Source: Heliocybe sulcata
Taxonomy: Eukaryota > Basidiomycota > Agaricomycetes > Gloeophyllales > Gloeophyllaceae
DNA length: 64,000 bases
NCBI GenBank assembly: GCA_004369045.1
Contig: ML213525.1
Span: 189,789-253,788, forward strand
Direction: 5' to 3'
Part shown: piece after piece, positions 1 to 21,634 of the stretch
Layout: each line of letters begins with the position of its first letter
Position numbering within the stretch: position 1 is the first letter of the stretch
Made by a program: the position numbers and the translations under genes
Notes under the pieces: generated by a model
Databases searched by the model: none
Seen by the model: the letters and a program-made list of their open reading frames with translations, nothing else
What the model was told of the DNA's origin: nothing

Positions 1-2403
1 GGTCCACCATGACAGTGAGCGTGTTCCTCCTTGTCTTCTTAGCGGAGCTATCTGACGAATCAGATTTGGCAACGGGCAGCAGCTTCTCGTTGTCAGGAGG
101 AGCGAGCGTTGCTTGGAGGGTTGAAGGGCGCCTATTGGGCGTCGAGCCAGGCAAAGATTTCGTAGTCCCATTTTCGGAAGCATAGCTTGCCCCATACTGC
201 GACATGTCTGATGGGACGCGCGAAGAAGCACCGTTCGTACCGGCACCGTCTGAGGCACCGAAGATCTTGCTGAGGCCCAGTTTGTCCACGGACATCCCCC
301 TCTTGTGCCCACTGACTCTTGAGGATCCTGATGACTGCGACCCATGATGAGCGTGCTGGGAAGGCAAAGACTTCTCCTCTGAAGCAGATGCAGGCGGAAC
401 GTGAGGACTTGTGAACGGAAGCGAGACAGCGGAGGTATCGGATACGGACGGAGGAACCTTCCGCTGGGAAGGCTCCCTGCGAGCAGAGGCGGAGCCACCA
501 GTCGGCGGCACAGCAGGAAGAGGTTTGTGGGCACTGTCCGTCGAAGCCTTTCTGGCATGCCTACTTCGCTCGGGACTGGACTGACCATTCTGGTAGGGTT
601 GCTCTTCGATCCTCATCTCCACATCCACCGGCTCCTTCCTCGACACCGATGAGGCAGGCTGCTGACTCTGCTCCTGGCCATTCTGTCCGTACTCAACCTG
701 GATAGTATGGCGCATACCGCCACCTCTCTTCTTGCTGTCCGTGCCATGGCCATTCTTCGATGGCGCCGCGTCAGCCCCTTCCTCACGTCTCCTATTCGGC
801 TGCAATGGTGCGTTAGAGATGACATCTTCCATGGGCGAACCAACGGCAGGCGAGATCTGAACACTCGGCGTATCACGGGACGGGATCTGTGCGAACGGAT
901 CGTCGTCGAGCACCAGCTGGGAGGCTGTGGGCACCACCATAGCCGAGTTATAGCCTCTCCTCGAAGCCGACTGGGCAGAGGAATAGACCGCTTGATCAAC
1001 CGAAGTCTCATACAGGTATTCTGGTTGAGTCTGACTCTGCTGCATTGATCCGTTGCCGTGCCCGTCCCTGTGGGACCTGCTCCTGGACGACTGCGGCGGT
1101 TGTGCAGCGGCATCTCCCCTCTCGCTCTGGCTCCTAGAGATAGCGCGAGACTCGACCTGACCTGCCTGAGCAACCTGCCGCATCTGCCGCTGGTACGCCA
1201 GAAGCTTGAGTTGATGCTGTTCCATGGCAGCACGCTCCAAGTCCTCCACAGTCTTCGTGAACAGGTGCTGATAGGGCGCGAGCCACTCGTGCCGCATGAT
1301 GGTCGGCAGATCCGCACGACGCGCTGGATCAGCAACCAGCATCAGTGACAGCAGATCGCGAGCTTCCGGAGATATATGCGGTGGGAAGGTGAGAGTGGTG
1401 GTGACGATGTACTTGTAGAGCAGATTGATGTTATCGCCATCGGGGTTGTCCGGGTCGTCATCGAATGGCAGGTATCCTGCCAGCATGGCGTACAGGATGA
1501 CACCGCAAGACCAGATGTCGACGGCTGACCCAACATAGAGACCCTCTGATATGACCAGCTCAGGCGCTGCGTAACACGGCGACCCGCAACTCGTCTGCAT
1601 CAAGTCGTCTGCCCGGTGTTCAAAGCGGTTGGCGAACCCGAAATCCGTGATGATGACATTGCGATTGCGGTCCAGAAGTAGATTTTCGAGTTTAAGGTCT
1701 CGGTGGACGATTTTCTTCTGATGAATGTACCAGACTCCAGAGATCAACTGAGAAAATAGTTTGCACGCGTCCTTCTCCTTCAAATAGCGATGGGCAAGGA
1801 TGTGATCGAACAGCTCGCCGCCCGAGGCGTATTCTAGAATGATACCGATATATTTATCGGTTTCGATCACGTCATACAGACGGACGATATTGGGGTGTTT
1901 AAGGCTCTGCACCGGCAAGGTAAGACTGGACGAAACAACGAGCGATCGGATGGACGACGTACCCGTAAGACCTCAATTTCTCTCTCTATCTTGGACATCC
2001 TAACGCTCGAATCGATGTTGCCTCGTCTAATGAGCTTCACTGCTACCTCCTCTCCCCATTGTGTATGCAGACCCAGTTTGACCTTGCCGAACTCTCCCTC
2101 ACCCAAAGTTTGCAAAAGGAGGAACGGACCGAACTTGGGTATTGTTCGACGCGGATGGGCAGCAGCATAGGCTGCAGCTGCCGGATGCGAGTATACATCG
2201 CGATACGCTGGCTGATCATTCTGCGCGTTCTCCTGTTGCTGTTGGGACGAGGAGATGACATTGTGAGAGGCACGATGTCGTCCAGCAGACTGCTGTGGTG
2301 GAGACGGATTGACCGTCACGGAGACAGGTCTGGTGTAGCCGGCCTGCCTGGACGAGCCAGGGACTTGCGATTGGGGTATTTGTAAGCTAGTAGAGGCGTC
2401 CAT
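1..2403 (-). CDS. Kin4-type serine/threonine protein kinase (3' part outside window)
   Basis: The protein starts at 2403 and runs off the left edge; about 780 residues are visible. A low-complexity N-terminus of about 90 residues is followed by a protein kinase domain: glycine loop GEGEFG at residues 101-106, the VAVK lysine at 123, HRDLKLEN from about residue 215 and DFGFANRF from about 235, then a CGSPCYAAPE activation segment. One 56-bp GT-AG intron (1907-1962) interrupts the domain after EIEVLR. The phrase LQTLGEGEFGKVKLG and the flanking residues fit the Kin4/CAMK-like branch found across fungi, whose members act in the spindle-position checkpoint and stress signalling. Downstream of the kinase domain the protein is long, polar and Ser/Pro/Gln-rich, as is usual for this family. 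Assignment to kinase is certain; Kin4 rather than another Snf1-related branch is inferred from motif resemblance. Confidence 0.88.
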
Positions 2404-3674
2404 AGCGACCGACCAGGGCGCCGCGACTATGCCAGGTGGAAGTAAGAGTTGAAGTCGCGAGCCCGGGAGAAATATACAAAAGAAGTATCAGTCGAACCCG
2501 AGCCGCTCTGGCGGGTTTCTGATGCCACTCTAGCGAGAAGGGAGACGCGGGTCACGGCTGTCCAAACCGGAAAGAGAGTACTTCAAATGCGCTATAAGTG
2601 CGACAACTGTCACAGCCTAAGAACAAAGCCCGGAGAGAGAGCGTCGTGCGCTGGTGGTCGTGGCGGTCGACGAGGAGAGTAACCAAGAAAAGGCTGCGAA
2701 GGATCGACTCTGACAGATCGCGAACAAGGGCAACGTGGATTGATGGGGTGATCAATGACTCTTGAGCTGGCACCCAAGTCTCCGGGCTCGCCAGGTCGTA
2801 TATGCGCAAGCAACAGCTCTACCTTGTTTCTCGAATATTACTGAGCAGCAAGAAGGTGTAGACGGTGTTGAAGCTGTGGGGGCAGCGCAACTGGCCCAAT
2901 TAGGTCAGGCGGCAAGACGGTATGCCGAGCTTATGTAACGCCTCGTGTATACGGGCGCTTAACGTTTAACAACCTTTTTCTCGCATGGCACTGCAGTGAA
3001 CAAAGACAGATAACAGTGGTCAGAGTTGCTCGAGCATCGTCTGTTGTTAACTTGGACTGACCCAGCCTAGTCGTCTTCGGAGTTGTAAGTTGAACGTTTA
3101 AACAGTCGTCTACGGTAGGAAATCTCAGAAAAGTTGGCAGGGTCCACAGGCCTGTTTCAAAAGATGCAAGTAAAATGAGAAGAGATGCAAGACTGTCTGA
3201 TCAGAAGCCATTCCATTGAAATCCGAGTACTGTGACTTGATTCTGGCAGGTAGGACGCCATGCCAGTCCAATAGAGTTGGCGTGTCGCGCTTCAATCACC
3301 AATCGAGGACACAGTTCATAGAGACACAACGCTGTAAGTCCTTCATAATTTACAGGTACAGGTACTACTACATAAATACAATAATAGCGCTACAACTAAG
3401 GTCCGTCCCGGTCCCGGGTGGTAATGTACGGTATGTGAGTCATAAATAGTGGTCCAACTATTATTAAATGTCCAAGTCTCTGGAACTATTAGTGTTCTTG
3501 AAGGATCAAAATAAGGAAGAGTGTTCACAAAGAAGGGTATACAAAGAACATTCGAACTGAAGGCCTGCGATTGGTCCGCCCCTCCCCTCCTCCCTCCTCT
3601 CCATCATTAACGTCGGGCGAACGGTTCCCCGTGCCGGTTGGTAACAGCTCAGGGTCTAACTCTGTATTCCCTCT
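2404..3674. other. intergenic stretch, no gene seen
   Basis: This is the upstream region of the kinase gene and the downstream region of the H2C2-finger gene. Short open frames on both strands do not resemble proteins and have no consistent splice sites. A pyrimidine-rich tract lies just beyond the 3' end of the H2C2 gene, around 3575-3605. Confidence 0.6.
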
Positions 3675-4874
3675 TCAGCGACGATTCGCCGCGCAGCCAG
3701 CCTGGCCGTCCTCCCTAGACGGTCTGTGGGTTCTTATGAAGCTGAGATCCAAGGGGCGAGGAATATTCATCGGATGACCGGAGCTAATCGACACTTGCGG
3801 ATGCTCTTCGCCAGACAGCACCCCGACTCCGGAGCTCCAAGGATAACGATGGTCATCGTAGCGGGACCTCCTTGGTCCATAAGTCGGCGAGTCAACTGGA
3901 CTCAGTTGCAGGTCCTTCGTCAACTCGCCGAAACTCGGTAGAGTGGTCAAGGCAGCGTCGGATGCACCAGCATGCACTTGACCTGCCGGCAGCACCAACG
4001 CAGGCACCGCTGGATTTCTCGGCCTCGATGCTGAGCTACCTATTTCCAAGCGGTGGGTCGCACTGCGAGCTCGGTTTAGCGGTGGAAGCGCCCCTTCATG
4101 GTGCATTCGGGGAACGACGCTGCTCGCCATAGCATAGGGGTCCGTCTTTACTCGTCGAAGAGCTCCCGATCTTCGGCCAGATTCATGCAAGCTATTCCCC
4201 GGGCCTGTGATCATTATTAGATCTCCAACTTGCACAGCATTATCCCTGATGCTGGTGCTCCTCTGCGAAGGTCCTGCTTCGTCAACCTCCATTGCATCAT
4301 CGTCTCCGCCACGATCAGCAGAAGCTGTGCGCCCGGGATCACCATCTGTTGAATTCGTGTCCTGCCCGTTCCTCTTGCCCGCACAGGTTGAGCACTGTCT
4401 GACAAAGGCAGCGATGATCTGTCGCGGCACGTACGAGTACCGCTGCCTAACTTCACGACACGTGCGGTCCCGCCCACCGTGCCTGCAGAGATCGTGGCAC
4501 TGCACGAGGATATCGTACAGTTCCTCTTTGATTGCGACGGGGCGCTGCGAGTGCATCAGGACCCGCCCCTCTATGTCCAGCGCGAACATCCTGCGCGCCC
4601 AGAAGCGGAACTGCGGGTCCTTGATGGTGTGGTCGTCTGGGTGGCGCAGGGTGTACACGATAGTCTTGTACAAGTCCCTGCTGATGAGCGCCTTGGGCTG
4701 CTTGCGTCGCGTTAAACTCTGGAAGTACTCGGAAATGATCTGCCGGAACTGAGCTCGGGTGGGGAAACCGGGTCGATCATCGGGATGGGAAGTCGTCCGA
4801 GTCCTTGTCGAAGGAGGAGACGGTGGGTAATCTTGGCTGTTCCTCACGTAGTTGACATCTGGCATAGCAGGCAT
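3675..4874 (-). CDS. H2C2 (integrase-type) zinc-finger protein, paralogue A
   Basis: This intronless frame encodes 399 residues. Residues 36-98 (from GFPTRAQF through FWARRMFAL) and 111-164 match its neighbour at 6995-8707. The second block is an H2C2 zinc finger with ligands H127-x4-H132 and C161-x2-C164 around HGGRDRT. This finger is known from retroviral and Ginger-type integrases, the vertebrate KRBA2/GIN1 proteins, and yeast Spt10, where it binds histone promoters. No DDE catalytic core follows: the remaining 235 residues are polar and low-complexity, which argues for a host DNA-binding protein rather than a transposase. A PLDLS motif lies at residues 374-378. The start at 4874 is the first ATG of the frame. 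The gene is divergent from its paralogue with 2.1 kb between them. The function is not established; a transcriptional role is inferred. Confidence 0.8.
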   Translation of the reverse strand: MPAMPDVNYVRNSQDYPPSPPSTRTRTTSHPDDRPGFPTRAQFRQIISEYFQSLTRRKQPKALISRDLYKTIVYTLRHPDDHTIKDPQFRFWARRMFALDIEGRVLMHSQRPVAIKEELYDILVQCHDLCRHGGRDRTCREVRQRYSYVPRQIIAAFVRQCSTCAGKRNGQDTNSTDGDPGRTASADRGGDDDAMEVDEAGPSQRSTSIRDNAVQVGDLIMITGPGNSLHESGRRSGALRRVKTDPYAMASSVVPRMHHEGALPPLNRARSATHRLEIGSSASRPRNPAVPALVLPAGQVHAGASDAALTTLPSFGELTKDLQLSPVDSPTYGPRRSRYDDHRYPWSSGVGVLSGEEHPQVSISSGHPMNIPRPLDLSFIRTHRPSREDGQAGCAANRR

Positions 4875-6994
4875 AACAAGTCGACGAGACAGAAGGCAAT
4901 AATGCTGTGGATAAAGGCAAGTTGTCCAATTTGTACTTGGGACGCATTGAAGATCACGACAGTATAATGACTGTGTTGCTAGCCGGCTAGATCAGGTTGT
5001 CGACTGTACTGGGCGCCAGTGCACCTTTGTGTTGGACACGTCAAGCACATCAATACTGCTTGTATTCCCTTAAGGAAAGCAGTGCGCATCTGTTAGCCAT
5101 GCTGCGTGCTGTGATCCGTGATGAGATGGAGCTGGAATGAGGGAGGGCTATTGCTAACGAGGCCATATAGAAATATGGACAGGTTTCCTATCAATCGTTG
5201 GCCGAGGTATGTTCTAGTCCACTTCGTCTTGCAAAGAGACTGATTCTGCAACCTTAAGAGCCATGTAGAGTGACCCGCCTGCCTGCTCATCGATGGATAG
5301 GGCGTAGAGACCTTTCACGATATCGGCAGGACCAGCTCCTCAAGTAATACAGGAATGGATATCCCGTGCTTTCACGGCACAGCAGCATCAGAGCTCTCTT
5401 TTGCTATGCCAGTCTCTTGGCGATCGTCAAATCACCTCGCGTGGATGTCGATATGATCCGTCCGAAGTGGCGCGACGAAGGAGGTCACTTGGCAAGTCGA
5501 ATCGCTCTGTGTTCATAGCCCATGTTTGTCGTAGCCTCAATGTTAGCAATCAGTACTCGTCTCAGCCTAGAGACTGAGCATCACCATGTTACGCTAACCC
5601 TCTGATCTTTGATTTATCCGTGCCTTACTTCGTTTAGCGTATATCGCACTCTCCATCGGGTTTACGGGCTGTTTCACGTCCGCGAGGCTGGCAAAAGGTT
5701 GCAAGACCTGAGGTCTGGCTCTGACAAGTAGAAGAATGTTGTGGTACATCTTCGAGTTGTGGACTATTAACACACGAAATACCATTCGCTGTTTAGTCAT
5801 CCGGAAAAAGAAGCGCAGGTCACAACTCAGCCTTGGTCCTTGAGTCGACATGGTGGTGCTTTCCTCCTTTGCAAGGCAAAGAATTCTGAGCGGGAGCACC
5901 TACATAGTAGTCGGAACAGGTCATGGACCTTGTCGACGGTACACTTCTCCCTTAGTATGCTCTCTCCAAGGGCTGAATCCCCACGGATAACAGCCTAAAG
6001 GAGTTGCCATATGACCTATTTAAAGAGTGAGTGACGCTACGAAGGTCCTGCGGTACTACCCACCGCATATGGACAGGCCATCATAGACCTTGGACCGCCG
6101 ACAGAAAACAGAGGTCAGCGATGCAGACCCCAAGTGTGGGGAAGCATGTTCTTACTCAGGTCTTACAGGTAAATTGTCGCTGCGGAAACTAGTCTCAAAC
6201 ACGCTGGACAACCTTGTAATTGCACTGCTTACCTGCAGGCTGCAAGCCTAGCCTATGAGGAGATAATCAGGCACATACAGTTGAGACATGCATGACGCCA
6301 ACCTGGGACTATCCCTAGACCTCTCCTCATGTTCGAGCTTGCAATGGGGCGCGAACCAACTTGGTGATAAATTACAGAGTCCCATAGAGGCATCTCCCCA
6401 TGTCTACATAGTACCGCATATCATAAGTACGTGTCTCGGGTCCACAGAGCGTCATACAACTTCGAGCGAGCGTCGCGCCATACATTGTCTATTTTTTTTG
6501 AACTTAGCTCTGTCCTGGGCTTGTCCACGCGGAAGTACTTGGTTTGGCTCGAAAATAACTGGGCCGTGTCAACTCTGCAGATATAGCGCGGAGAAATCAT
6601 GATAGATACCACGTTGTGAGCGTACGTGCATAGGCACCGCTACATCGGAACAGATGGTATGATTCAGTCTCGATCCAAAAGCTGTCGACCGTCAGTTCAG
6701 CGTCAGACTGTATCGCGACACTCGCCGCGGGCTGTTCCTACTCGCCCCGAAGAGGAAGGAGGCTGCGAAAGAAGGTCGTGCACGTGCACTTTGACGCGCA
6801 CAAGCGCCGGTTGCAGCCGTTCCCATCTCCCTTCAGCGGACGACCATCATCGCAACGTATACCCACAACCACAATCAGTAAGCCCCGAATATTGCTGTGG
6901 CCTACTCATCTGATGCTGATGCTGCCCATAGTATATGAATTAGTAACGACTATACGAACCATTCCTTTGTTCTTCATTTGTACTATATTTCGAC
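4875..6994. promoter_or_regulatory. 2.1-kb divergent intergenic region between the two H2C2-finger genes
   Basis: Both paralogues are transcribed away from this region, so it must hold both promoters. No convincing coding sequence was found; the open frames at 5093-5290, 5594-5899 and 6288-6602 show no domains. No clear TATA element pairs with either start codon. The length is unusual next to the 150-180 bp divergent promoters elsewhere in the window. Confidence 0.5.
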
Positions 6995-8707
6995 ATGACA
7001 ACCCGAGCGAAGCGCCAGGTGCGCTCTACGAGGACAAGACCTTACGAGAAGAAAACACAGGCATCTTTACCTGCGCTTGCCGAGGGAGCAGGCACATCTA
7101 TCGCTCCGTCTCCTACGTCTCCCACGCCGAACCTTGTATCTCCATTCGCCGACCAGCATGGCTTCCCGACGCAGGCACAGTTCTCCGAAACGCTAAAGCG
7201 TTACATTGCTTCTCTACATCCGAGAAAATCCGTAAAGGCGCTCATTGATCGGGAGATGTACGACAAGATCCACGGCAGCCTGAACGATCCTTCCGATCAT
7301 AGGATCGGAAACGCTCAATTCCGGTTCTGGGTGCGGAAGATGTTCGCTCTTGAGCACATTCCAGGGTATGGTGGCCCCTTGGGAGACAACGCGAATTCCT
7401 CATTACCACCGCTCGCAGTCGTACACGAAAATCGTCCGGTGGCGATCAAGGAGGAGTTGTATTCTGTCCTTTGCCACTGTCACCGGTTGGCAGAGCATGG
7501 TGGGCGGGATCGTACCTGCGCTGTTGTCCGCAGTCTGTATTCGTACGTTCCTAAAGTGCTGATAGCGGCATTCGTCTCCGAATGCCCGACATGCCAGTAT
7601 CGCAGGACCGGGGATCCAGTTTATCTGCCATTCAAGGCGGACGAGTCAGGAGGGCATGGAGCGCAGGATGCTGCCTTGATCGAGCACCCCACGGAGGAAC
7701 AAGAGGAGGACCCTGAGCCAGCTTATTTTGGACCCGGTCCGGAGTATCCCTTGCAAGAGGGCGCGCTACCAGAGCAACTGCTGTCCTTACCTCCGTGGCT
7801 ACACCATCCCATTCCTCCTCTACCACCTTTACGCCCTACGCACCGGGGCTCTACGTCTAGCATTGATACTCACGCGACCTTAGTGACACCTGATAACGAT
7901 GACATCCGCGCTCTGCCAGCTTTTCACCTCCCGCATGTCGTCACGACCTCTCCCACTCTAGACCCGCTGCTTCACTGGGATCCGAGCCGCACGACACCTT
8001 GGCTGGCAGGCTGGAACGGCCAGTCTTGCTTCCCTCCCTTCTCCGCTCCGGCGACTCACCCCGCGAGCCCCAGCAAGCACAGGCTGCCCAGCGTCTCACA
8101 ATTACTGCGGATGGAGGGCGTCGATGGGGAGAGTTACGCAAACGGGCATGGTGACGAGGAGGATGTCAAGCTTCCCCGGCTCATGGACGCCCTGCCGGAC
8201 GAGCGTCGGCTTGTGGACGTTCCCATCGACCCGTCCTTGCTTGCTGAGCACGCGCAGCATGAGTCCCCGATGTTCTCCCCTTTCCCATCGGCTTATCCCC
8301 GCCCGCCTGCTCTCATGCATGGGACGCCGAGCCGGGCCCCGCGCATCGTGGTCACTGCCTCTGCTCATACACACGCGCGTCCACCGCCGCTCGATCTGAG
8401 TAGGATATCCGCGCTGCACGTCGCGCCTCCTGTCTTCTCCCCGCTATCACCGAGTCCGCTCAGCTCCGACCGCTCGAACCTACCCACTGGGTCCTCCATG
8501 TCGTTCGATACCTCTATGCCAGAGAAACCCACGCAGGTCGGTCTGAGCAGGAAGACGAGCTCTGTCAGGAGCGGGGCTAAGAAAACTAGAAAGGCGAAGG
8601 GGAAGAGGCGAGCAGATCCTGAAGACGACCAGAATGCGGATTGTCAGACGCTTGTTGCGGCCGGATCGTCGACTCGGAGACCCCGCTCGGCGAGAACGAA
8701 GACTTAA
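6995..8707 (+). CDS. H2C2 (integrase-type) zinc-finger protein, paralogue B
   Basis: This intronless frame encodes 570 residues. Residues 56-119 (GFPTQAQF to FWVRKMFAL) and 147-200 (RPVAIKEELY onward) are clearly homologous to paralogue A. Finger ligands are H163-x4-H168 and C197-x2-C200, with the same 28-residue spacing between the second His and the first Cys as in paralogue A. A 20-residue insert around residue 130 is absent from paralogue A. The long tail is proline/serine-rich. It carries a PPLDLS motif (PLDLS at 465-469), a region resembling LPSFGEL of paralogue A (LPSVSQLL), and a basic run KKTRKAKGKRR at 529-539 that looks like a nuclear localisation signal. No integrase core is present. 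A sequence-specific nuclear DNA-binding role is inferred, not shown. Confidence 0.8.
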   Translation: MTTRAKRQVRSTRTRPYEKKTQASLPALAEGAGTSIAPSPTSPTPNLVSPFADQHGFPTQAQFSETLKRYIASLHPRKSVKALIDREMYDKIHGSLNDPSDHRIGNAQFRFWVRKMFALEHIPGYGGPLGDNANSSLPPLAVVHENRPVAIKEELYSVLCHCHRLAEHGGRDRTCAVVRSLYSYVPKVLIAAFVSECPTCQYRRTGDPVYLPFKADESGGHGAQDAALIEHPTEEQEEDPEPAYFGPGPEYPLQEGALPEQLLSLPPWLHHPIPPLPPLRPTHRGSTSSIDTHATLVTPDNDDIRALPAFHLPHVVTTSPTLDPLLHWDPSRTTPWLAGWNGQSCFPPFSAPATHPASPSKHRLPSVSQLLRMEGVDGESYANGHGDEEDVKLPRLMDALPDERRLVDVPIDPSLLAEHAQHESPMFSPFPSAYPRPPALMHGTPSRAPRIVVTASAHTHARPPPLDLSRISALHVAPPVFSPLSPSPLSSDRSNLPTGSSMSFDTSMPEKPTQVGLSRKTSSVRSGAKKTRKAKGKRRADPEDDQNADCQTLVAAGSSTRRPRSARTKT

Positions 8708-9020
8708 AGATTAAGATATGATCTCCAAGAATCATGGCTGGACCAAAGTATATGCCCCTTCCCTCTTTGTCTCAAACATATGTATCCCACTATCATTGCA
8801 TCGGACCTCAGGACACATTCATAGACACAGCGCATAGACACTGTATTTCTATTCACAGGGATTTTGTAACTCGTAGCGACTTCCATTTCGTTCATTTCGT
8901 TTTGTCGCATTGGTAAATGCATGTACATATATACGCCGGTGGCACATTTGTTTCCACAGGTAGCACAGTACGATTCGGGACATTATGCTGATCTTGTTGT
9001 ATCATGTCTGTTGCTGCTCG
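8708..9020. other. 3' flank between convergent genes
   Basis: This 313-bp stretch lies between the ends of the H2C2 paralogue B gene and the arylesterase-like gene. It probably holds only the two 3' untranslated regions; no other element was seen. Confidence 0.6.
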
Positions 9021-10517
9021 TTAGACGACGCCCTTGTCGAGCTCGCACACCGCGAAGCCGCCGTATTGTATGACGCCGCCGTTGATAAGGACGTTGTTGT
9101 ACGGATCAATGGCAGCGACCGTCTGGTAGCTGATGACAGAGCCGTCGTCGTAGTATATGAGCTCTGGCTTGAAGCCCTCTGAGCGGTCAAGGCGGACGGT
9201 GGCAGCGGGTACCTTGTAGCTCTTCCCGAGTTCGCGGAAGTTCGCTTGATATTCGTGGCTGCGTTCGACGTCGGGGAAGACTGATTCGAAGTGTGAGTGT
9301 GAGGCTTGCGGTCGGAAGTAAGAGCGTACCCGAGATGACTAGGTCCCGGGTGGTGGGGATGATGTTGATGTTGTCGGCAGCGCCACCCAGATGCTGGGGC
9401 GGCACAGGTAGATCAGGAAATGGTGTGCAAGGGGAAAGGCGCGGAGTATCCTCACGATTGTGGCGATGTTGATGAGGCTTCGGTCGGGTTGGATTTCGAA
9501 TATTCGAGCGTCTCCCGACCGAGCATCACCCACGTAGAGCTCATCGCCTGAGATGAGGATGCCGTTAGCACCGGGGAAGGTATCTGAAACTTGACGACAA
9601 GCAGTGATCTGTGAAGCGTCTTGTATTTTAGCGGATGAATCAGTTTCCTGTAGTGATGGCAGATTACTGGGCCGGTCGCATCGCAATATTGTACGTTTGT
9701 TGCCCACGTCCAGGGCCCATACTTCTCTTCCAATAGTCGAAGAATGCCACCTTTGGAGGTGTAGTGGTGGTCGTTGGTAATGTAAAAGTCCCTGCATCAT
9801 AAAGAAGACGAAGTACAGTAAGGCAACACAGTGGATCATCAGCCCGGAGTCTAAGGCAATCACTGCAATGCCTACGTACAAAGGTCCCCTTGCTGCAACG
9901 CCATTGGCGTTGTATATTCCTGGATGCCTTACGTTCTTTACAAGCTCCACGCTATCCGATCCTAGAGCATGAGAAAAGATAACGATCGTATCTCCGCCCC
10001 GGCCGTGATTTACCGCGAAGATGTGGACCTACAAAATTCGAGGTTGCTTCGGAAGGCCAATTTACAGACATGCCGAGCTTACCTTGCTAGGATCATCAGG
10101 AAAAGAATAGATGTCTATGCCGTGCGTGATAAAGTCGCCCTCGAGGCCGAGGACCCTGAGCTTCGTGGTCCGCTTGCTCTTGATATCATACTTGAACAGA
10201 TGTTCTTTGAATGAGTTTTCTCTCCGACCCCTGGCGTTGTGCCGTCCGGAACACGGGTACCATTGCATTCTCTGCTCGGGGTCGCCGCAGGAAACAAAGG
10301 CAGTGCTCGAGGGGAAATGGATCTTTACATCCTCGCAGGCGTCTGCTTCGCGGTGAACCACACATCGCTGGTTGTTTAGCGCGCTGCTATTGGCCCAGCG
10401 GGTTATAGAAGCCGGGTCGATCTTCGCCTTCCCGATAGCTCTGTAGAAAGGCCGGGGCTCGTAGACTGCAACTGCTGCCACCAGGACCGCCAACACGAGA
10501 GAAAAGATCGATGACAT
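9021..10517 (-). CDS. Paraoxonase/arylesterase-like (SMP-30 fold) hydrolase
   Basis: The gene has at least six exons. Exon 1 (10517-10083) begins with a hydrophobic signal or anchor of about 18 residues (SIFSLVLAVLVAAVAV). Later exons give ITHGIDIYSF, FAVNHGRGGD, HPGIYNANGV, FYITNDHHYT, ANGILISGDELYVGDA and, at the end, ISYQTVAAIDPYNNVLINGG. These are the blade motifs and calcium-site Asn/Asp residues of the serum paraoxonase/arylesterase six-bladed propeller family, whose members hydrolyse lactones and aryl esters with bound calcium. The stop is at 9021-9023. The hydrophobic start suggests secretion or membrane attachment. Family assignment is firm; the substrate is unknown. Exon borders in the 9250-9650 region are approximate. 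Confidence 0.83.
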
Positions 10518-10826
10518 CTTCAGGCTTGGAGATGATGGTCGTATGTATGTTTCTACGGAGGAAGGGTGCGTACAAACACTCCCAGTATGGCAGGAATATT
10601 CCTTCGCGGGGCGCCGGAGCAGATCTGGTGACCATTGCACTAATTTTGGCCAACACAGGCTCGACACAGATGAAGCCGCTAACAAGTCATGAAGCCGTTG
10701 ATAAGTCTCCAGTGCAGGTTTATCGAGGCGACAGTGTTTGTGAATGAGAGTTAGAAACAAAACCGATGGTTGCTAGATGGCTGCTAAGACCATCGACAGA
10801 CGTTATCGAAACAGAAATTATTATTA

Positions 10827-10857
<31 letters not shown>

Positions 10858-10964
10858 ATCTGACTTACATGTCGGAGATCTGAGTGGCAGTGAGCTTTCA
10901 CGGGCCTGATGTATATTTACCTTCATCGCACCTTCTCCCAATTCCTCCAACTTACACAACAGCC
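10518..10964. other. divergent intergenic region with AT microsatellite
   Basis: This 447-bp interval separates the arylesterase-like and Aim3/Bbc1-like start codons, so it should hold both promoters. The only distinct element is the AT dinucleotide run listed separately. Confidence 0.6.
10831..10855. repeat. (AT)12 microsatellite
   Basis: This is an uninterrupted AT dinucleotide run of 25 bases, preceded by a short TTA repeat. It lies in the divergent upstream region between two genes. Confidence 0.95.
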
Positions 10965-12920
10965 ATGCCTTTGGCAGGTGAGTATAGGCTCATAGTCATT
11001 CTATTGCAAAGTCAGCAGCAGGCGTACTGTCGTGATTGCTGGAAAGTGATCGATTCGTACGGATAGCAACGTACGAGTAGATTCCTCAAGCAAACATGAC
11101 TGTTCTCCCGCAGTTCCACTCTATGATTGGCATCCAGCAGCATCGAGAAGATAGACTAAGCTCGTTCCCTTCAGATCTCAAAACCAAAGCTCTCAAAGCC
11201 AAAGATGCAACCGTCTCGAAAGTCGTAAACACGAAAGACCGCATGCAGAGTACCCCGTCAGCTAAGACGAACTGGGACTACAGCAACCCGCCCGTGCGCC
11301 GCCCGCCTCCGGTGCCTATGAAGTCGCGGGATTCTGAGCTTTACGGGCCGCCTCCAGTCCGCCAGAACTCAAAGCCCGAATCGTCAGAGTCTATGGAGAA
11401 TGTCCACGCGCGCCCTTCTCCGGTGCTTACAAGCAGACCGTCTGTCACTCCGAGGGCGAGTAAGCCTGCGATACCGACACGTACGGTGCCTGAGGAGGAC
11501 CTGGCATATGAGCCGCCGCGACCTCCGCCGATGCCAACGCGTAGGAGCGCCGCGTCTGCCCCAATTCAAGAAAGTCACACGGAGGAAGTAATTGATAGGA
11601 TTGATTGGGTTAACCTCTCGCAAGAGGACAAAGACGTTCTCTTCAGCTGGCTAGACGAGTTTTTCACGCACCTGCTTGGTCAACCCATCGGGCCCAGCGA
11701 CAAGCCCACCGTTTCAAGGAACGCTGTGTCATGGCCAGCGCCAAAGCCAACATTACCCAGTCGCCAACCTTCCGCTGTTCCTGTGGAACATGCATCTCCG
11801 CCCTTCGAGGCGACGGCGCCTGCTTCTCCTCCGCCCGTTGCTCCGGCTCGTAAGCTTCCACCTGCTCTGCCTCCTTCCAGTGGACCCGTGAGTCGAATGT
11901 CTGCCTTTTCTATAAGTCGTCTGACTACCCCCTCCGTACAAACAGCCCCCGATCGCCCTTTGGTCCAAGCCTAAGCTCTCATCCTCACCGAGTCCCGTAG
12001 GTGCGCTCCCTTCGTTGTTCATGCACGACTTATCCAGACCTATCTGTCTAGCAGTGAACACACCATCGCAAGACACACCCTGCTCCGCTCTCGACCTCGC
12101 ACACTACTTCTCCCCATCCACGCCCTGGCTACACGCATGGTACAAGTCCGACGGCATCCCTCCCCCCCTCGCCGGGCGCGCCGACATGACCCTGCGTGGT
12201 CAGCGTACGAGGCTTGGGGATAGCGAGACGTACTCTTGCGGCGTCCTTTTTTCTGATCTTAGCTACTGCTGGTTCTCGATCTCCTACTCCACCACTACCA
12301 ACGACCCAAACCAAACAACCCGCACCGCCCAGTATCTCCCTCCCCCTCAGCCACTTGACACCGCAAGCCTGGTAGCAGCACACGAAACGTACGGCGAGAC
12401 GATCGCTGCCTACGCCGAGAGCATCGCCGACTCAGGTGAACACTTCCCTGGGCACCTCGTCGTCGCCGCGCTCAAGTACTTCGACCAGTTTGACTACATC
12501 GACAAACCCACCCCGTCTATCCACCGCACACACGGCCATCTCACGTTCTACGGTTCCGCCGAGTCGGGGCTGGGGCATTGGATCGGTGGTGATCCCGTGA
12601 TTAGGCGGGGAGATGTGATTGAGTGGCACGCTTCGATGTTTCACGAGGGCTGGAAGAGGGTTACGGGGGATCACACGAGTATTGTAGTGAAGAACCGTCA
12701 GATTCCGTACAGGGAGGGGGAGTTTAGTCTTGGAAGGCTGGGGATCTTGGAGGTAGTGGAAATGGTTGCTGGGAACAGGGTGGAGAGGAAGGAGTTTGAT
12801 ATGGATGGTTTCCTGCAGGGGGAGATGTATGTCTGTAGGCCAGTATCGGCAAGGGTGTATTTGGGTTTTGAGGCGAGTGAGTTGCAGGTGTGTCCGGCAA
12901 ATGCGATCAGTGTCTACTGA
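10965..12920 (+). CDS. Aim3/Bbc1-type actin-patch protein
   Basis: Three exons (10965-10977, 11175-11887, 11946-12920) join in frame to 566 residues. The 13-nt first exon plus a 197-bp intron gives an N-terminus MPLADLKTK, chosen because other joins give stops. The middle is proline-rich, with many SH3-ligand-like stretches such as RRPPPVPMK and PPPMPTRR, and contains the conserved block IDWVNLSQEDKDVLFSWLDEFF. The C-terminal 250 residues (YFSPSTPWL, GHLTFYGSAESGLGHWIGGD, VIRRGDVIEWHASMFHEGW) match the C-terminal domain shared by yeast Bbc1 and Aim3, which act at cortical actin patches with SH3 proteins and type I myosin. There is no SH3 domain here, as in Aim3. Exact orthology to one or the other is uncertain. 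Confidence 0.75.
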
Positions 12921-13073
12921 TGGATGACTGCTGTTCTACTTTCTTGGTCTTCGCGGCGAAGGGACTCTTCAATTTAGGTTCTTTAGGTACACTCATGGGG
13001 ACTCTTATGGAGTATAGTCTGGTGTATTTCTAGGGCAATGATACACTGCCATTGCCTAATGCACGTACATGCG

Positions 13074-17449: not shown

Positions 17450-20400
17450 CTACGAGAAGAAATAGAGCGACTGCTTAGTGGTGTTGACATCAAAATCGCC
17501 CTTCTTGGGGACGGGCGGGATGAGGTCCGTGACGTTAATGTGTATTTTGTGGGGAGACACCCCCCCATAACGGCTGCGTTTCTGCTTGGTCTCACCGCTT
17601 AACTCGAACGCGTCCTCGAGCGCCTGTGCGCCCTCCTCAGACTGTAAGTAGGCGTCCAAGTCGTCAGCCTCGTTCATGCGTTCAGAGAATTCGTCATCGA
17701 GGGCATCGACGTTAGGCTCAGCAGCCTCGATCGCCTCGTCTTCGCTCTCCTCCTTTGCGGCAGTCCCCTCAATCTGCTCCAAAAGGCCCACAATAGCAGG
17801 TGGTTTAACGCCCATGGCCTTGAGCTTCTCGATGATATTCGAGGAGCGGACGGTACTCAGAGGGACCTTGTAGTCCTTGTATCGGTACATGAACTAAACG
17901 CAGTCATTAGCATACGTGTAGCGCTCAGACAGAATGAAAACACACCTCATCATGTAACCTCTGCAGGATTTCTCCGTTGTGCAGCTCGACGAAAGTGTCT
18001 CGGATGATGGCAGACATGCGGTCGATATCGCATGCGTGCGTCCAGTACGAGTCATGCACGGATGCGAACGTGATATCCTCATCCCTGCACCGAAGCGCAG
18101 TCTTCATCATATGTGACGCATCAAGACTGTGAATAAAGTTTGGCGGGAATGCAGACGCCTGCTTCATCGAGTTGACCTCGGCGGGGGAGTTCGGGTCAGA
18201 GATGAACACCGACTGGATGGCCGTCATGATCTGTTTTCTCTTTACCTTCCTGTACGGCTGTACGATGGGTAGGTTCATCGGCGACGTCCAGATCATGCTC
18301 GTCATCTGCTCCTTCTTCGTCCTAGAAGTCGCCTTCTTGTTCCCCTTCCTGTCCACGTATTCCTTCGACGCCTCCTCGACCCGCGCCGGCGGAATCGACC
18401 TGGTTACGAGCCGCGCGCACATGTTCAGCCACGTCTGGATATCTGTTGCTCCCGAGAACAAGTCGCCGATGGCGGCGAGGACCTTCTTCGCGAGGTAGGC
18501 CGACGCGCCCCATGCTTCTTCTTCTGGGACGACACTCCTGTCCCTCAGCTGCTTCTCGATCTGCTCGCGCGCACCGATGAACGTGACACCATACACAGTC
18601 GTCATGACAGTCTGCTTGACGATCTTACGGGCAATCTTGCCGACGAGCATGGCAGCGTATTTATCGGTATCCTTCTCCTTCTCTAAAAGTTCCTCCACCA
18701 TGTTCGCAACGTAGGTGTACACATCCGACGGCCGGTCCGTGACGTCCAAGTTCACCTGTCGGGCGCCCTTCTCATCACCTCCAAGCGCAGCATAGTGCTG
18801 CAACCCGTTGCACGTTCCGTCCTGGTGGACGGGCAACGAACACTCGTACGTCAAAGGATCGGGGGACTTCAGGGCATTATTGAGTTCCATGCACGTCGCG
18901 AGACACTGCCACGGATCATCCGCCTTTGTCCACCAGCCTTCGCCCTCAAGCGGCTTCTCAGCCGAGTCGACAATGTTGGCTAAATTCTCCTCAGTCCAGA
19001 CCACTCGCCCGTCGAAGTCAGCCTTGTCATAACCATACAAGTTTGCCAAGTGAATCTTGAGCCACCGCAGCCCGCGAGCGCCCAAGGGCTTTGCGTCCGC
19101 GAACTTCATCAGGCCACGACTCAGATCGTCGCCGATGTGACTCAAGTGCGGAGGAATAGGGTATGCGCGACCACGGAAATCGATGTTGTGCGGCAGATAG
19201 AATACGTCACTAATGAATGTGCGAGCAATCTCCATCTTGTAGTTGACGCTGCATCGGTCCGAGTGGTTATTGCCCCTCGCATGGTGGTACGCCTTGACAC
19301 GTATCATGTGGACATTCCGTGACTTCGGGTTAGACGCCCAGTCCAATGGCTTCTCTGGCTCGGGCATCTCGAACACGGCCGGCGGGATTTTGGCAAAACG
19401 CTTGCCCGAGTTCCAGACCTTCAAGACGACGTCGAACACCGCCCTGTTCACGACCCAAGGCGTCGATCCGAGAACGTCAAGGGCAGCAAAGACCAGCTCA
19501 ATCTTGCCCTGTCTGGCAGCTTCCCGAATATGGACCTCTTGCTCTTGCGACTCCTTAAACCGCATGACCTTCGCTGCGAGATAACATCAGGATCAACAAT
19601 TGGGCGCGAGCAAACTGACCACTCACTCTTGATATTGAGGTAGGCACCATTATCGTAGTCAAGCCACGGCTTGGGCCTAACCAGCATAGGCAAGCTGCGG
19701 GGAGTCACCGTGTCGCGGACATCATCAGTCGCAAGACGCTCAGCGACCGCCGAGTTCAGCTTGATAACGCCGAGCTTATGACCGTGAACGTATTCATAGG
19801 TGTGGAAGAAGGCAGGCTGCACCTCCTCACTGCGAAAAGATAGGATTTAGACGTGTCTCTACATTCATAGCAATGAAGTACTCACACTAGCTGTTTAGTC
19901 TCTTTATCAATACCGCTCCGCGTAACAGTCGCGACATCAATCAAGCTATCGACGATGAAGCTGGCTATCCGCACTTTAAGCGTCTGCGACCAGTCCGCCG
20001 ACCAAGCCTCATTGTCCTCCATATACTTTCTTGCCGCAATACGCCGCGCATACAGGTCCTCGTACCCTTGGCCGGAGTAATGCGCAAGCTGGCCCGGCTG
20101 TAGCGGATGCATCGGCACCGAGATATTATTTTTCTTCCTCATTCGCGCGTGATACTCCATCTCTATAGCAGTGCCCACTGACAGCAACGCCCTCGCCATC
20201 TTCATGCCGTCGCTGACACCGCCGCTCCCAGACAAACGCATGAGCTCCAAGATCGTGATTAGCGACATCGTCTCGGGCTCGAGCAGCTGCAAGAACGGGC
20301 CGAGAAACTGCTGCTCCCTGGTAGAAGGACCACGCTTCTCCTTGATGGCCTGCTCCTCTATAAGCAGGGCGTTAACCTCAGCCTCCAACCGCTCCTGCAG

Positions 20401-21634
20401 TTTTGTATGCCACTCCCACATCCAAAGCTGCAAGCCATGTCTCCTGAGTGCCGGGTCCTTGATACCGAGCTCCTCAAGCATTTTCACTTGCTGTACCATC
20501 CTCTCGCGTGCCACGTCGATGGCGGAGTCCTCGAGTACTTTTTGTCGGACGGCCACGTCGTCTGGAAGGACTTGACGCGCCATCTTCACCCGCGCCAGGT
20601 GTCGTCGGAGCAGGTCCAGGCTGAAGGGCACCTCCATAGCGTCGTCCGTGGTCGGCGAGACCTCGCCTACGGCGACTTGCGGTTCCTTCCGACGCAGGAC
20701 GGGCATGGCCTCAGGGACGTCCGCGAAGGGATCGGAGTATTTCGCGATCGCTTGTGCCTCGCGCAGTTCAGCGATAAGACGCTCTCGGTTCTGCGCCACC
20801 GCTGGGGTGAGAATGGCGTCCGTGATCCTGGCGGCCTCTCCGGGCGATTGGATGGATGGGTCGGTGATGATGTCCACCGCGGAGATGCCTTGCTCGTCCA
20901 AGAGGCCGACGAGCTTCTCCGGTTCAGGCAAGTGCAGCCGAGGCGCGTCAACCGGCCGCAAGGAGAGCCTTTCGTGAAATCTGCACACCATAAGAAAGAC
21001 GCGGCACTGGGAAGCTCAGCCTAACTCACCGTGTCCACGCTGAAAACAGGATCGCATAAGACCCCGCCGTGGGTCGTATGGCCTCGACAGCCGATTGCAT
21101 CGTATTGAAGACATCGACAGCGTCCTGGACCCACCCCTCCCAGTTCTCCACGTCCTTCTCCGCCATATCGAAATACCCGCGCATCATAGCGTTGTACAGT
21201 CGAGGTTCCAGGAGGGGGTCGCCGGCTCGCTTCACCCGCAAGTCGTCGAACATCCTCTTTGCGCGCGGGACATCGAGGAGCTCATTCAAGCAAACCTCAA
21301 TCACGGCCAACTGGTCCTGCGTCGGCGAGTCCGGGTACAAGAAGTCGTTCGCGGCGGACCCCCGTGCGTCCTCGGGGAGAGGCGTGGGGAGGATGGTATA
21401 CCTTGGGGCCTGCTTCATAAGGCCCTCCATGTCGGCGAACGGCCCTGGCTGGCTGTCGTCTGCGCGCGGCGGCATGAACGCCGGGTAGCTGGGGTCGACG
21501 GCATGCGCGGTCGCGAGCGCTGGTGCGTGGGCTCTTTTGGAGGGCGTCGAGTACAGCCGCGCAGGACGGGGCAGGCATTGGCGAGAGTACGGCAGCAAAG
21601 CCGTCTCTAGTCTGCGCGCAGTCCTGGAGAGCAT
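17450..21634 (-). CDS. RPO41: Mitochondrial DNA-directed RNA polymerase
   Basis: Five exons (21634-21030, 20980-19886, 19829-19627, 19573-17946, 17893-17450) join with matching phases to 1324 residues. The start carries an Arg-rich mitochondrial presequence (MLSRTARRLETALL). The N-terminal extension is followed by a single-subunit T7-type polymerase core: FYLPHNIDFRGRAYP, DGTCNGLQHYAALGGD (motif A region), RKIVKQTVMTTVYGVT (O-helix, motif B) and VHDSYWTHA with catalytic Asp (motif C). It transcribes the mitochondrial genome and, in fungi, needs the factor Mtf1. The last exon ends with an acidic segment and SLYFFS, matching the conserved aromatic C-terminus of this family. Nothing looks broken. 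Confidence 0.95.

Follow-up and report, generated by a model that had tools for sequence, protein, structure and literature searches.

Two head-to-head genes with an integrase-type zinc finger

We analyzed a 64,000-nt stretch of the Heliocybe sulcata genome (the window; contig ML213525.1, positions 189,789-253,788, forward strand; coordinates below are positions in the window), in which two genes, named A and B here, encode proteins with a zinc finger of the integrase type. Gene A (3675-4874, minus strand, 399 residues) and gene B (6995-8707, plus strand, 570 residues) are transcribed away from each other, and both start codons face a shared upstream region of 2.1 kb (4875-6994) with a GC content of 0.50 and a longest open frame of 120 codons. 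A first, sequence-only reading had described them as intronless and divergent. The open frames were confirmed, and "intronless" means here that each gene is covered by one open frame, as judged from the DNA and not from a transcript. The longest open frame in the 5.6-kb A-B stretch had 586 codons; over 300 base shuffles the median was 157 codons, and none gave more than 307.

The two proteins are paralogues that aligned at 49% over 169 residues (E = 5e-47). Their common part (A, residues 33-170; B, residues 53-206) has the same order in both: a block running from GFPT.AQF to QFRFW..R.MFAL is followed by RPVAIKEELY and, after that, by the finger. The N-terminal block extends from GFPTRAQF to QFRFWARRMFALD in A (residues 33-100; 4575-4778, minus strand) and covers residues 53-119 in B (7151-7351, plus strand). 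The finger occupies residues 119-165 of A (4380-4520, minus strand) and 157-204 of B (7463-7606, plus strand). Its spacing is identical in the two proteins, as had been predicted along with the shared block: H127-x4-H132-x28-C161-x2-C164 in A and H163-x4-H168-x28-C197-x2-C200 in B. In 20,000 shuffles per protein, exactly this spacing appeared twice for A and twice for B.

The sequence-only reading had pointed to two Pfam families for the finger, and one of them was recovered. Against Integrase_H2C2 (PF17921, curated cut-off 25.5 bits), protein A scored 30.2 bits as a whole (E = 4.9e-7), 31.5 bits as the module of block and finger, and 33.7 bits in a six-frame search of the 31.6-Mb genome. Protein B as a whole fell just below the cut-off (24.8 bits, E = 2.4e-5) and exceeded it as the module (26.6 bits) and in the six-frame search (27.6 bits). 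Neither protein matched zf-H2C2 (PF09337), which we take to be the family of the Spt10 finger: hmmscan gave no match, and A and B were absent from the 18 genome stretches that matched at E ≤ 1 (4 of them above the cut-off). No other Pfam family was found by hmmscan in whole A or B at E ≤ 1, and no NCBIfam family matched. The N-terminal block of B alone gave a DUF4381 match below the cut-off (E = 0.062, 14 of the 27.2 bits needed).

The 5.6-kb stretch is single copy, and neither protein, searched against the genome, retrieved a further copy of the module; the tail of B gave one match elsewhere (E = 0.9). Between A and B, 75 of 138 aligned residues are identical, whereas the third base agrees at only 9 of the 31 comparable fourfold-degenerate sites. 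By the NG86 method, dN was 0.45 and dS was not finite. Since silent sites have turned over, apparently to saturation, while the protein was kept, the duplication is probably old and has probably been followed by purifying selection.

Host genes or mobile element

A decaying transposon or retroelement remnant was considered as an origin of the pair. The finger is of the element type. The genome contains at least 38 Integrase_H2C2 matches including A and B, and 18 of the 36 others have an rve match no more than 1 kb away (hand count; H2C2 and rve counts are both lower bounds). In addition, two 16-nt repeat pairs flank both genes, one imperfect inverted (632-647 and 12779-12794) and one direct (763-778 and 11547-11562), although both look like chance. 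Against a remnant stand the long open frames, the constrained protein and the single-copy DNA. Moreover, no rve match occurs in the window, the nearest on the contig being more than 150 kb away on either side, and no inverted repeat longer than 23 nt was found in positions 1-13000, where gapped repeats could escape detection. We consider a remnant very improbable. Pfam detected no integrase core (rve or DDE) in A or B, in agreement with the sequence-only reading. An active element was rejected because of the single-copy DNA, the lack of long inverted repeats and the lack of a nearby rve match. That A and B are host genes forms part of the explanation that we favor.

Similarity to NOL4

NOL4 is an animal protein of brain and testis. 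The human NOL4 sequence in all comparisons was a reconstruction and not a database record, and every NOL4 alignment result depends on its accuracy. In Pfam, this sequence matched HTH_NOL4_2nd with 215 bits over all 95 positions, a check that does not guarantee each letter of its N-terminal block. Its residues 128-164 matched Integrase_H2C2 just below the cut-off (23.2 bits, E = 7.8e-5), and no integrase core was detected in the stretch used, as in A and B. NOL4 and NOL4L resemble A and B in having, in the same order, an F..W block, R-V-A, and then the second His followed by x28-C-x2-C. In contrast, the alignment places 12 residues between the two His of NOL4, compared with 4 in A and B. NOL4 also has a C-terminal helical domain, PF23079, which hmmscan did not find in A or B; no PF23079 match was found in the genome, though the search controls also gave nothing.

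A BLASTP alignment of A with NOL4 was colinear from inside the N-terminal block to the last Cys (E = 6e-12), and the Smith-Waterman scores of the A and B modules against NOL4 were above those of every shuffle. When NOL4 was used as a phmmer query, A and B ranked first and second among 2301 open frames. These frames were 60 residues or longer and came from the window and the collected loci, six loci being left out as repeats of A or B. The next match was the finger of an element locus, L033 (E = 0.021), and reversed whole NOL4 retrieved nothing under E = 1.7. Against A and B the NOL4 finger scored 103 and 87, respectively, while the best of the element fingers reached 63 and 74 (n = 34 of the genome's 36 other H2C2 fingers, 2 being dropped for N runs). 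The fingers of A and B were thus closer to NOL4 than to any of the 34 local element fingers scored, a further point against a remnant.

L033 (G000:C18, finger at 634852-635028) carries an element-type finger with ATHGG. With the NOL4 finger alone as phmmer query, it reached E = 0.0043, close to the value for B (0.00095).

The N-terminal block is conserved with NOL4 in both proteins, and less strongly than the whole module when taken alone. Smith-Waterman scores were 48 for A (maximum of 2000 shuffles, 41) and 61 for B (maximum 40). With the NOL4 block as phmmer query, B was matched at E = 0.027 and A, more weakly, at E = 0.98, the reversed block giving 0.71 at best. A profile built from the A and B blocks matched NOL4 at E = 0.0014, the best of 5000 shuffles giving 0.46. 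No PDB chain matched a profile of A, B and NOL4, and a sequence search of PDB also gave no relatives.

Taken together, block and finger resemble a two-part module homologous to the N-terminus of animal NOL4. Because they are colinear with that N-terminus, the unit that was recruited seems to be this module, and it seems to predate the A/B duplication. The sequence-only reading had proposed an integrase finger that was turned into a DNA-binding regulator and then duplicated. Its integrase-type finger, its divergent duplicated pair and the constraint on the protein were borne out, and recruitment of the finger as a regulator is plausible; however, that account was incomplete in that it missed the two-part module of the NOL4 type.

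Two histories could explain the likeness to NOL4. NOL4 and the A/B pair may go back to a single integrase-derived regulator whose domestication predated the animal-fungal divergence, a proposal that we advance tentatively. Alternatively, NOL4 and the pair may have been taken separately from Ginger2/KRBA2-type transposases that already bore block and finger, so that the likeness would reflect the transposon and not a common host gene. The finger motif HGGRDR presumably resembles KRBA2-type fingers. A DNA pattern for GHGGRD-M retrieved 4 loci in viral contigs, however, and these appeared unrelated by eye. The sequence-only reading had likened the finger to that of Ginger-type integrases. In Ginger1 a YPYY motif is described upstream of the finger (Bao et al., PMC2836005), and no such motif was evident by eye in A or B. 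The same source describes Ginger2 as having an H2C2 finger without YPYY and as occurring in protists, in animals and, in vestigial form, in the fungus Malassezia globosa. A table of domesticated genes places KRBA2 and SCAND3 in its "rve" section (PMC3257199). The taxonomic spread of Ginger2 and the missing YPYY keep parallel domestication in contention, and we regard it as possible, if short of an even chance.

Tails and proposed function

Beyond the module, the tails of A and B did not align past short motifs, and they are probably disordered, as judged from composition only. A basic run resembling a nuclear localization signal, KKTRKAKGKRRADPE, was confirmed in one tail; it lies at about residues 529-543 of B (8579-8623, plus strand). 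A second basic stretch occurs in B near residue 4, and the test that finds the run in B found none in A. Both tails contain PLDLS (A, residues 374-378, 3741-3755, minus strand; B, residues 465-469, 8387-8401, plus strand), which we take to be a docking motif of the CtBP type. EGALP is a second short motif common to the otherwise unalignable tails, at residue 260 of A (4083-4097, minus strand) and residue 255 of B (7757-7771, plus strand).

We propose that A and B are old, constrained nuclear regulators or coregulators, built on a module of the NOL4 type and duplicated in H. sulcata, and that they are host genes; we give this explanation a probability of about 0.5. An integrase-type finger joined to a second block, both seemingly present in NOL4, suggests that the two proteins are probably nuclear regulators of ancient mobile-element origin. 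Each would consist of a helical block (F..W...F.L), a zinc-binding HHCC finger of the integrase N-terminal-domain type and a long, probably disordered tail. The proteins would enter the nucleus, and the basic run in B would fit import. There the module may grip DNA in chromatin or a protein partner, and might pair A with B, while the tails would recruit cofactors, so that A and B could act as transcriptional regulators or coregulators.

Two observations weigh against this proposal. One is that the N-terminal block of A alone did not exceed the reversed-block control in the comparison with NOL4. The other comes from work on NOL4 splice forms (PMC5343783): NOL4 is reported to bind Mlr1 and Mlr2 and to alter their transactivation, and NOL4-S, described as lacking the N-terminal region, still suppresses both. 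According to the same source, this region is present in the long splice form and absent from the short ones, and it should be where the module sits. Since NOL4-S suppresses without the module, the module may have another role, for instance in bringing the long form to chromatin.

The module might instead be a protein-protein adaptor, its finger serving dimerization or cofactor docking without touching DNA and the PLDLS of the tail recruiting a corepressor. The action of NOL4 through Mlr1 and Mlr2 agrees with this, as does the reported contribution of HHCC domains to integrase multimerization. P-x-D-L-S occurred in both tails in 6 of 20,000 tail shuffles, a motif picked after it had been seen; however, some common 5-mer arose in 2581 of 20,000 shuffled tail pairs. 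Nor was a CtBP orthologue recognized among the 2 of 10 genomic PF02826 stretches that were compared with PDB chains. Their best matches were metabolic dehydrogenases (glyoxylate reductase and phosphoglycerate dehydrogenase), CtBP standing lower in both lists. We judge a pure adaptor to be possible, though less likely than not.

Neighboring genes

The neighbors of A and B in the window resemble ordinary genes, and their names were assigned by eye only. The N-terminal part of a protein kinase gene adjoins gene A (1867-2403 and downstream, minus strand; LGEGEFGKVKLG, VAVKLI). Frames resembling a mitochondrial (phage-type) RNA polymerase lie at 17925-21634 on the minus strand.

Significance and comparison with known systems

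No relatives of A and B were found in phages (tblastn), in viral contigs (queries A1, A2 and A4) or in genome contigs (A1 and A2). The collections searched were viral, phage, prokaryotic or structural, so this absence is uninformative about fungi. Literature searches, which left most subscription journals outside their range, found nothing that tied NOL4 to integrase and zinc and nothing on integrase zinc transcription factors in Basidiomycota. Among the matches listed for NOL4L and zinc, none concerned an integrase-finger link judging by titles, and the one match for NOL4 and transposase domestication was, by its title, on flipons.

Integrase fingers turned regulators are known singly, as in Spt10 and ZBTB11. 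A module common to the fungal pair and NOL4, if true, would tie a neural and testis cofactor to a mobile-element domain. It would also name four finger residues as targets for mutation and offer a simple fungal system for asking what the module binds. If a single domestication preceded the animal-fungal split, it would be a very old one for an integrase, and NOL4 would gain an integrase-type zinc finger.

Going by the title of a 2006 paper by Mendiratta, the DNA-binding domain of yeast Spt10 reportedly contains a finger with homology to foamy virus integrase. Spt10 of Saccharomyces would thus resemble A and B as a fungal activator with an integrase-like zinc finger in its DNA-binding domain. 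It is described as binding histone-gene promoters and is placed in Ascomycota in a table of the same source (PMC1794435). Unlike A and B, which match no such domain in Pfam, it is described as a putative acetyltransferase. ZBTB11 is likewise reported as a cellular repressor with an integrase-like HHCC finger, but with the spacing HX6H(X29)CX2C and with a BTB domain and further zinc fingers. GIN1, NYNRIN, KRBA2 and SCAND3 presumably retain parts of the core, unlike A and B. In Imagin of decapods the core is reported to be kept without its catalytic residues, and in amphipod Imagin to be lost, A and B having none. All five, GIN1, NYNRIN, KRBA2, SCAND3 and Imagin, are described as integrase-derived host genes, which is the status that we propose for A and B.
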